Under the pieces are notes generated by a model, which searched no databases, had not been told where the DNA came from, and saw only the letters and a program-made list of their open reading frames with translations. The position numbers and the translations under genes were made by a program. From Roseiflexus sp. (GTDB lineage: Bacteria > Chloroflexota > Chloroflexia > Chloroflexales > Roseiflexaceae), in the NCBI GenBank assembly GCA_017743475.1, contig JAGHYV010000046.1, positions 1 to 37,510 of the forward strand: 37,510 nt of DNA, given 5' to 3'. Positions 8 to 37,510 of the stretch are shown piece by piece (within the stretch, counting starts at the first letter, position 1; each line of letters begins with the position of its first letter).

Positions 8-2121
<2,114 letters not shown>

Positions 2122-34837: not shown

Positions 34838-34951
34838 ATGAAACGGGTCGGATGTACCCTCGAAGTCAAACCTGAACTCGTTGACGAGTACAACGCCATC
34901 CACGCCAGCATCTGGCTCAACATGCTCGATGCCCTACGCCGTCACAGATAG
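34838..34951 (+). pseudogene. rhaM: Truncated L-rhamnose mutarotase remnant
   Basis: The 37-codon frame begins [19 protein letters not shown] and continues through [12 protein letters not shown], the start of the RhaM family (about 105 residues), with GAGGAG correctly placed before the ATG. It stops at TAG (34949). Reading past the stop gives [10 protein letters not shown], which resembles the family's next segment (RNYSLF...GL), so the TAG probably replaced a Trp codon. After that the frame is lost where rhaA begins, so the rest of the gene is deleted. Confidence 0.75.
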
Positions 34952-34982
34952 CGCAACGACACGCTGTTCAGAGGAGGCTTGC

Positions 34983-36269
34983 ATGACATTCACGGCGCCG
35001 ACTCCCGCACAGATTGAAGCCGCTTACGCCGTCGCCCGTGAACGGTATGCGGCACTTGGCGTCGATACCGAAGCGGCGCTGGAGACCATGGCGACGGTCA
35101 GTCTGAGCCTGCACTGCTGGCAGGGCGATGATGTCGCCGGTTTCGAGAATCCCGGCGGTCCGCTCGAAGGTGGAATTGCCGCGACGGGCAACTATCCGGG
35201 TAAGGCGCGCAACGCCGACGAATTGCGCAGCGATCTTGATATGGTATACCGGTTGTTACCCGGTCGTCACCGTCTCAACCTTCACGCCATCTATGCCGAA
35301 ACGGGCGGAGTTAAGGTCGAGCGCGACGAACTGCGCCCTGAGCATTTTGCCTCCTGGCTCGATTGGGCAAAGGCGGGCGGACACGGGATCGACTTCAATC
35401 CAACATGCTTTTCTCATCCGCTGGCAGCCGATGGTTTGACCCTCTCTCACCCCGATCCGGCGATTCGCCGCTTCTGGATTGACCACTGTATCGCATGTCG
35501 TCGCATCGGCGCCCACTTTGGGCAGGCGCTGGGCACGCCATGCATCACAAACATTTGGATTCCAGACGGCATGAAGGATAACCCGGTTGATCGGTTGGGA
35601 CCACGTGAGCGCCTACGTGAATCGCTTGATGCTATCCTGTCAGAACCACTCGATCCAGCGCATAACCGTGACGCTGTGGAAGCCAAACTCTTCGGTATTG
35701 GCTCCGAAAGCTACGTCGTTGGTTCGCACGAGTTTTACCTGGGGTACGCGGTCCGTCGCCCTGGCGTGATCCTCTGCCTCGACACGGGGCATTTTCATCC
35801 GACCGAACTGGTCTCGGACAAAATTTCGTCCGTGCTGCTGTACGTAGACGAAATCCTGCTGCATGTCAGTCGCGGCGTGCGCTGGGACAGCGATCACGTC
35901 GTGACCTTGAGTGACGAGACGCAAGCTATCATGCAGGAGGTGGTGCGCGGTGGCTTTCTGAGTCGCACCCACATCGGTCTGGATTTTTTCGATGCCAGTA
36001 TCAATCGGGTTGCTGCATGGACAATCGGCGCCCGTAATGCCCTGCGCGCGCTGTTGATTGCGCTCCTCGAACCGACCGAACGCCTGCGCGAACTGGAACG
36101 CGCCGGGGATTTCACGGCGCGCCTTGCCCTGCTCGAAGAGTTGAAGGGCATGCCGTGGGGGGCAGTGTGGGATGCCTACTGCTACCGCCACGATGTGCCG
36201 GTAGGTGCCGGTTTCCTGAACGAAGTGCGGCGGTATGAAACTGACGTGCTCGCGGCGCGCTCCCGATGA
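34983..36269 (+). CDS. rhaA: L-rhamnose isomerase
   Basis: This enzyme interconverts L-rhamnose and L-rhamnulose. The 428-residue sequence follows Escherichia coli RhaA closely: [78 protein letters not shown] and [17 protein letters not shown]. The metal-binding His and Asp residues in those motifs are all present. AGGAGG lies 5 bases before the ATG at 34983. It sits just after the rhaM remnant. No rhamnulose kinase, aldolase or transporter is in the window, so the pathway must be completed elsewhere or is partial. Confidence 0.95.
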
Positions 36270-36295
36270 ATGGTATGACATGGTATCCTGTGGCT

Positions 36296-36320
36296 CGCAC
36301 AGAGGCACAAAGGCGCGCAG
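36296..36320. repeat. Partial copy of the CACAGAG repeat after rhaA
   Basis: It reads CGCACAGAGGCACAAAGGCG and continues CGCAG: two or three 9-base-like units without a clear opposite arm. It begins 26 bases after the rhaA stop. Confidence 0.4.
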
Positions 36321-36429
36321 ATTCTGTATCATGCAATCGTCGGTCTTCTCTACCAGACGAAGGATCAGCCAGGTGCGCGCAGACGAGACGCCCGCGCTCC
36401 CGGGTGCAGCTCCAGGAGAGGTGTAAACA

Positions 36430-36506
36430 GTGAAGAAACTGCTGGTTTCATCTATTATGGAGAAGGTGTGAGGCTGCGTTGGTCGGCAGTTGTGCTGCCT
36501 CACCTT
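36430..36506 (+). other. Possible leader peptide and overlapping hairpin before the DruA-like gene
   Basis: A GTG at 36430 with AGGAGAGG 8 bases upstream opens a 13-codon frame (VKKLLVSSIMEKV, stop at 36469-36471). Its end overlaps the left arm of a hairpin: AAGGTG-TG-AGGC (36463-36474) pairs with GCCTCACCTT (36497-36506) apart from a 2-base bulge, with a 22-base loop. A run of five T lies at 36526-36530. It could be an attenuator, a terminator for rhaA, or the cut-off start of a gene lost when the right-hand region arrived. The rest of 36270-36549 holds only the partial repeat. Confidence 0.35.
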
Positions 36507-36549
36507 ATATTTGGTGAGCACTGTCTTTTTAGGCATCAGGATCTTCCAA

Positions 36550-37510
36550 GTGGATAGTGCAAAATTAGCAGAGCTTCTGCTACAGAGACTTCACGAGCTA
36601 GGTTTCGTGGTCACAGAAGACGGTTCACTACGTCCTCTCATGCTTGATAAGGTGAGTTTGCGTCAAATTCACCGACCGGCTTCTCAATTAGAAATTGCTG
36701 CCCGTCAAGATTGGCTTCGCCAGCATCTTTCCAAGTATCTTCCTTTCTTCGCCAATGGTGATGATGTTGTTGCTGAGCGGATTGACCCCGTATTGGTTGA
36801 AGTGACCAAAGAGCACGACCATCATCTCTTCCGTATAGCACGATTACTCTGGTCCGTTCCATTTTCCCAGGGCTATGGCCGCCGCTTGAGATTTCTTATC
36901 ATCGATCAGGCCAATGACAAGTTAATCGGTTTGCTGGCGTTACAGTCTCCTCCCCTCAGTTTTCCGGCACGCGACCGTTTGTTTCGTTATCCTCCCGGCA
37001 GAAAGACAGAGATGGTCAACCAGACGATGGACATCCATACGCTGGGGGCAGTGCCGCCGTATGATCGTCTGTTGGGTGGGAAGTTGGTTGCACTGGCAGC
37101 GGTATCGAATGAAATTCGACAGGCCTATTGGCGCAAATATTGTGGTCGCGTGACCGAAATGGAACGACGGATCTTGCCCCCTCATCTTGTGGCGCTCACA
37201 ACGACAAGTGCTTTCGGGCGGAGTAGCCTGTATAACCGCCTAAGATATAACGGGACAATCATCGCTGAGTCGCTTGGTTATACTGAAGGCTACGGCGCCT
37301 TTCACCTGATGGAACTGTACCCCTTATTCCGCGAACTTTTGGAAGGCCAGGGTATTTCGACGCGAGGCGGCTTTGGCGTTGGCCCACGCCGCAAATGGCA
37401 AACGATGGTGCGAGCACTTGGCCGATTAGGTCTCTCATCCGATTTACTCCGTCACGGCGTAAAGCGGGAAGTGTTTCTGTTTCGCCTGGTGGACAATCTG
37501 GAAGCATACA
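36550..37510 (+). CDS. DruA-like DUF4338 protein, partial (runs off the right edge)
   Basis: DUF4338 includes DruA of the Druantia type I anti-phage system. The 320 visible codons contain the recognisable core: LRFLIIDQANDKLIGLLAL near residue 118, NQTMDIHTLGAVPPYDRLL and GGKLVALAAVS, then ALTTTSAFGRSSLYNRLRYN, SLGYTEGYGAFHL and LLRHGVKREVFLF. The end is near but the stop is outside the window. I chose the GTG at 36550, with AGGA 8 bases upstream; another in-frame GTG lies at 36514. Codon use is AT-richer than its neighbours (GCAAAATTAGCAGAGCTTCT), which suggests horizontal transfer. Its biochemical role is unknown. Stand-alone DUF4338 genes exist, so a full Druantia system is not assured. 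Confidence 0.82.
   Translation, partial: MDSAKLAELLLQRLHELGFVVTEDGSLRPLMLDKVSLRQIHRPASQLEIAARQDWLRQHLSKYLPFFANGDDVVAERIDPVLVEVTKEHDHHLFRIARLLWSVPFSQGYGRRLRFLIIDQANDKLIGLLALQSPPLSFPARDRLFRYPPGRKTEMVNQTMDIHTLGAVPPYDRLLGGKLVALAAVSNEIRQAYWRKYCGRVTEMERRILPPHLVALTTTSAFGRSSLYNRLRYNGTIIAESLGYTEGYGAFHLMELYPLFRELLEGQGISTRGGFGVGPRRKWQTMVRALGRLGLSSDLLRHGVKREVFLFRLVDNLEAY

Follow-up and report, generated by a model that had tools for sequence, protein, structure and literature searches.

The right edge of a Roseiflexus contig cuts through an open reading frame that resembles DruA (DUF4338), and the question raised by this locus is whether the gene opens a known Druantia system or a new arrangement, the two outcomes that the original prediction allowed. 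The window, the whole stretch of DNA analysed here, is the entire contig G000:C34 of 37,510 nt and ends within that frame. The assignment of the protein itself was confirmed: positions 36550-37509 matched the Pfam DruA family PF14236 with an E value of 1.3e-73 and 248 bits (cut-off 27), the match spanning positions 3-292 of the 297 in the profile, and the PADLOC DruA profile was matched at 3.5e-85. The start codon is likely the GTG at 36550 because conservation begins about there. The terminal 55 nt of the window are identical to the opening 55 nt of contig C195, with no other copy in the assembly; this is the pattern of two neighbouring nodes of a short-read assembly graph, so druA can be followed beyond the window. 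The join is further supported by related loci, where the same gene has the same neighbours, and the joined frame is unbroken, giving a protein of 378 aa.

Downstream, nurA begins 17 nt after druA and herA overlaps the end of nurA (Table 1). The NurA nuclease domain PF09376 scored 25.3 bits (cut-off 21), and the central domain of HerA matched DUF87 with an E value of 9.5e-16. To the right of herA lie the last part of a bifunctional rhamnulose-1-phosphate aldolase/dehydrogenase, a rhamnulokinase and a hydrogenase maturation protease. A DruE-type helicase and DruB-D had been expected on this side; the rightward extension gave NurA and HerA instead, followed by host rhamnose genes. Judging from gene content, DruB, DruC and DruD are absent from the 20 kb after DruA, no large DruE helicase stands beside DruA, and neither NurA nor HerA of the cassette matched a Druantia profile. 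On the other hand, the outcomes named in advance as contrary to a defence locus, a lack of DUF4338 or housekeeping genes directly to the right, were not what we found, since a nuclease and a DNA motor precede the host genes. The locus is thus defence-like, although it is a compact three-gene cassette rather than the entry to a long island, and the suggestion of a new arrangement in Chloroflexota held up, as it fits no known Druantia type.

Table 1. Coordinates of the features discussed (C195, contig adjoining the window; L numbers, related loci)
Feature	Location	Strand	Remarks
HsdM-type DNA methylase	window 565-2121		left contig edge; any type I partners would lie beyond the edge
Repeat, left edge	window 19-57		probably an insertion sequence
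rhaA, L-rhamnose isomerase	window 34881..36269	+	PF06134, E 5.5e-206; host gene on the left flank, outside the system
Left end of acquired segment	window 36260..36549	.	between rhaA and druA; no match in closed Roseiflexus genome G166
Hairpin before druA	window 36499-36518		one 6-pair stem
druA, first 320 of 378 codons	window 36550..37510	+	GNAT fold, long subfamily; PF14236 match
druA, remainder	C195:56-231		beyond the window; frame unbroken across the join
nurA	C195:249-1397		outside the window; 382 aa; PF09376 above cut-off
herA	C195:1369-3216		outside the window; 615 aa; DUF87 above cut-off
Repeat, right insert border	C195:3312-3523		truncated copy; probably an insertion sequence
SACS-NOV_C proteins	L089:2693-5824, L114:2698-5862		between DruA and NurA
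GmrSD	L091:5208-6980		between NurA and HerA; McrC-type gene in front of the operon
Pentapeptide-repeat protein	L093:3515-5812		nested in the operon; apparent NTPase part
BrxC/D ATPase and unknown protein	L115:342-2791		nested in the operon
NurA-HerA pair, exchanged DruA	L131:5839-8761, L134:5839-8764		NurA start to HerA stop
DruA with DruE-type helicase	L236:1024-8925, L237:6914-14873		Druantia-like; helicase about 1820 aa
Second, distant NurA-HerA-DruA set	L239:7879-11843, L240:7943-12074		gene order changed
DruA fused to SspF-like part	L241:4383-9658, L242:5896-11074		proteins of about 1250 aa

The cassette lies within the L-rhamnose operon. When the locus was compared with the closed genome G166 of the same genus, homology ended at window position 36259 and resumed at C195:3524, with 94-95% identity on either side (94% for rhaA, whose true start is probably about 35000). 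In G166, rhaA is followed by an intact rhaD frame of 737 codons, whereas here 4,719 nt replace 1,770 nt of the operon and rhaD is cut. The left end of the acquired segment is single-copy in the genome except for one 32-nt match. On the right, the insert ends in a truncated copy of a repeat that occurs at more than a dozen genome sites; translated, this fragment resembles the beginning of an IS transposase. The left edge of the window carries the same repeat (Table 1). GC content is 52% in the insert, against 60% (rhaA) and 61% in its flanks, in agreement with the prediction that DruA is AT-richer than the housekeeping genes to its left. The break in homology with G166, the low GC and the repeat at the right border show that the cassette is a fairly recent arrival, and it broke the rhamnose pathway. 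No tRNA that could serve as the integration site was found near the cassette. A repeat and a hairpin had also been noted in the gap before druA, and both are present, but both are at chance level: there is a single hairpin (0.4 expected in shuffles), one promoter-like site (0.3 expected) and only one direct repeat, of 16 nt with 88% identity and copies 667 nt apart, so the repeat and the hairpin were rejected as functional sites. As for the restriction-modification genes announced at the left edge of the window, an HsdM-type methylase is indeed there, but it is not in the island of DruA because 34 kb of mostly housekeeping genes lie between them.

DruA and NurA go together far beyond this genome. 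Among 400 Chloroflexota genomes, 29 have DruA, 20 have NurA of the cassette type and 16 have the two adjacent (Fisher p 2e-17 for co-occurrence), while three of the four sampled Roseiflexus relatives lack the cassette. A HerA-alignment scan with one genome per species gave 185 relatives, of which we kept the best 80. All three genes are present at 78 of 91 non-duplicate loci, in the order DruA-NurA-HerA and on one strand without exception (78/78). The spacing is at most 60 nt between DruA and NurA in 73 of 84 loci and between NurA and HerA in 81 of 84, and the distances of the three proteins correlate with each other (r 0.67, 0.47 and 0.79). The hosts form 22 groups in the HerA tree (about 20 phyla), which mixes phyla, and include Chloroflexota, Cyanobacteriota, Acidobacteriota, Bacillota, Pseudomonadota, Planctomycetota, Nitrospirota and an archaeal bin; many of these genomes are metagenome bins, so that single placements may be contamination, and isolates are represented by Thermanaerothrix, Pyrinomonas, Thermovorax, Tepidiphilus and Methylococcus.

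DruA is missing from 13 of the 91 loci. Seven of them (L059, L063, L067, L101, L106, L115 and L129) are cut by a contig end, leaving 84 that could show DruA, and the other six keep NurA-HerA with no DruA beside the pair. Four of the six (L049, L050, L051 and L053) come from one genus near Thermomicrobium, where the pair lies beside a glycosyltransferase, the genomes have no DruA at all, and the L053 copy is interrupted by stops. The fifth, L061, is from the isolate Pyrinomonas methylaliphatogenes K22 of another phylum; its HerA and NurA are 82% and 80% identical to the Roseiflexus copies, NurA lacks its first 40 residues, and it may be a transferred copy that is decaying. The sixth, L128, adjoins apparent type I restriction-modification genes, as far as their sequences tell. 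L234, L235 and L243 may be further sets of this kind, with a HerA domain in L234 and L235; their NurA candidates gave no NurA match, so they were left out of the counts.

Because a profile search of NurA against the PDB returned nothing useful, we relied on a fold search, in which the NurA model (pLDDT 92) matched solved NurA structures best (Z 22.2 and 22.1) and TdpAB next (Z 14.2). NurA has invariant Asp/Glu residues, the Walker A and B residues of HerA are invariant in 15 sequences, and the HerA profile matches HerA and TdpA chains.

DruA has, to our knowledge, had no activity assigned to it since Druantia was described. Its model (pLDDT 91) matched GNAT acetyltransferases, the fold of the Mom family. 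Phage Mu Mom came in the first row (Z 9.6, rmsd 3.6, 178 residues) but was tied with other GNATs (Z 9.5 and lower), so the row alone was not taken as proof. A DruA profile search against the PDB gave only chance coiled-coil matches. That DUF4338 is a GNAT domain had been stated earlier (PMC10853773). The family falls into a long and a short form. Short DruA, as in L041 and L042, matches PF14236 (E 4e-32) and shows no BLAST link to long DruA in gene clustering; profile alignment, with a single pair of profiles each, connected long with short DruA at E 1e-8 and short DruA with Mom at E 4e-7. Short DruA keeps Mom H48, R101, S114 and G158 in all six sequences, Y49, Y149 and N153 in five of six and D139 in three of six. 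We take H48, Y49, R101, S114 and D139 to be the key residues of Mom, the serine presumably being the one mutated in 8bv8 with a numbering offset of 10 allowed. For long DruA, a direct match to Mom was sought and rejected (hhalign probability 0.03%), and an alignment by way of the short form suggested that the Mom positions are not kept: LGGK stands at the place of the Mom serine, and TTTSA near that of D139. Long DruA has invariant residues of its own, K198, S240, S245, S246, Y248 and R250 in L057 numbering (K178, S220, S225, S226, Y228 and R230 in the Roseiflexus locus). It may do other chemistry, or none.

Two loci show that the two forms can replace each other. The stretch between the start of NurA and the stop of HerA is 84% identical in the DNA of L131 and L134, and beyond it there is no identity; one carries a long DruA and the other a short, Mom-like one, and the break falls at the NurA start codon. 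This is a natural swap of DruA over a common NurA-HerA pair. Together with the second set (L239 and L240), it shows that the link of DruA with NurA-HerA is functional and not an accident of one lineage.

We consider it probable that DruA-NurA-HerA is a mobile three-gene anti-invader (antiviral) system in which HerA feeds NurA and DruA picks the target DNA. HerA would assemble into a hexameric ring and, driven by ATP, push double-stranded DNA into a dimer of NurA for degradation, in the manner of the solved HerA-NurA and TdpAB complexes. DruA, with its Mom fold, would choose the DNA to attack and thus serve as the self/non-self module; its exchange over a constant NurA-HerA pair is as expected of a module for specificity or self-marking. 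What DruA does chemically is the most speculative part. In short DruA loci it would most likely acyl-modify host DNA as a self mark, marking being favoured there because of the Mom residues, while long DruA, including that of the Roseiflexus locus, would perform a diverged version of this task, by making a different modification or by recognising a mark or a DNA structure. The TdpC modification step alongside TdpAB is a precedent for marking. Another is provided by the predicted Mom-nuclease pairs of jumbo phages (PMC7824862). With ATP, the T. kodakarensis HerA-NurA complex digests double-stranded DNA on both strands (PMC12977600). A bolder version, that DruA is a Mom-related DNA modifier in a new type of restriction-modification, with a GNAT acyl mark that blocks HerA-NurA and subfamilies that write different marks, is possible but less likely than not.

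A role in defence is suggested by the mobility, the patchiness (20 of 400 genomes), the company of the cassette and the known biochemistry of its parts. Loci of a subgroup around Nitrospirota and Kapaibacterium have additional genes nested in the operon (SACS-NOV_C, GmrSD, pentapeptide-repeat and BrxC/D-type proteins; Table 1), and such varied restriction-type cargo within one operon is what defence loci show. Some of the 101 nearest flanking genes match restriction-modification, Gabija or DRT profiles and most match none, in a census that had no control set. Against the proposed system, the flanking genes are mostly ordinary, six loci keep NurA-HerA with no adjacent DruA, long DruA appears to lack the Mom catalytic positions and has no direct profile match to Mom, and the HerA-NurA of archaea and Deinococcus is a DNA-repair machine.

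This last point leads to a different reading, a DNA-repair module, in which the cassette would encode a second machine for end resection by HerA-NurA, DruA being an accessory or regulator. In archaea, HerA-NurA carries out resection of DNA ends, and the same role is presumed in Deinococcus (PMC9960219, PMC12977600); the strongest fold matches of NurA are to those repair proteins. We nevertheless regard this as unlikely, because the cassette is so patchy, inserted recently at the cost of a metabolic gene, has restriction genes nested in its operon and exchanges its DruA. In addition, a second, more distant NurA relative occurs elsewhere in the Roseiflexus genome and in many related genomes, and is the better candidate for a housekeeping role.

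It is also quite improbable that the three genes serve the maintenance or transfer of a mobile element, for example in partition or competitor exclusion, rather than host defence as such. The truncated IS-like repeat at the right border would fit this, as would one copy behind a TraG/TraD-type coupling protein (L111), the short DruA relatives that also occur away from NurA-HerA, and the viral contigs, since both that were found carry DruA, NurA and HerA. However, the cassette is not accompanied by genes for an integrase, a relaxase or replication; only the three genes are conserved as a unit, and the flanks differ between genomes. HerA gave only six distant matches in 72,556 plasmids, the four of which that were opened have NurA and no DruA, and none in 50,697 phage records.

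It is very improbable that the cassette is a form of Druantia from which DruE was lost or always absent: it has DruA (PF14236/DUF4338) in common with type I (DruA-DruB-DruC-DruD-DruE) but neither the DruE helicase nor DruB-D, NurA and HerA taking their place in all complete loci, and the DruA-DruE loci of the same phylum stand separate. A Druantia system with DruE was rejected on the same grounds, since the true DruA-DruE loci of Chloroflexota (L236 and L237) look different. These two loci, of which L236 also has a DruK-like nuclease, fit no type I set by the neighbours of DruA alone.

The likely defence system described here resembles several known ones in part. It shares hexameric HerA, the NurA fold and gene adjacency with the end-processing complexes of T. 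kodakarensis (9x1m) and D. radiodurans (7f6d; PMC12977600, PMC9960219), but identity is low and the cassette differs in its fixed third gene, its patchiness, its mobility and, in some operons, its restriction genes. TdpABC (8wet, 8wfd) likewise has a modification gene beside a motor-nuclease pair, the HerA-like TdpA and the NurA-like TdpB matching by profile and fold; these matches are only distant, and the third gene here is DruA with a GNAT fold instead of a phosphorothioation enzyme. HerA-DUF4297 and HerA-SIR2 are two-gene defence operons that also combine a HerA motor with an effector enzyme, but they use a PD-(D/E)xK nuclease or a SIR2 NADase where the cassette has NurA, and they lack DruA (PMC11291478). 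Mom of phage Mu and the predicted Mom-nuclease pairs share the GNAT fold, the motif residues of short DruA and the logic of modification plus nuclease (PMC7824862), whereas long DruA has other residues and the nuclease here is NurA-HerA rather than a fused REase. Finally, DndFGH with fused DUF4338 and BRC combine a HerA/FtsK motor with a protein of GNAT type, and their operons are predicted to act in defence; NurA is named in neither paper, and BRC also has PglZ and BrxC-like parts (PMC10853773, PMC12839542). In the literature searched, which mostly did not cover subscription journals, no paper paired DruA, Druantia or DUF4338 with NurA. Thus, defence by HerA and a nuclease is of a known kind, while the composition DruA-NurA-HerA appears to be new. 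DruA now has partners of known biochemistry that stay constant across many phyla, together with a link to a DNA-modifying enzyme, and its function becomes testable with three small proteins, several of them thermophilic, and a natural swap. The system seems to be widespread, and PADLOC-DB 2.0.0 contains no model for its NurA. A further type, in which DruA is fused to an SspF-like part (L241 and L242), is separate from DruA-NurA-HerA, and in L241 an SspG-like gene follows.
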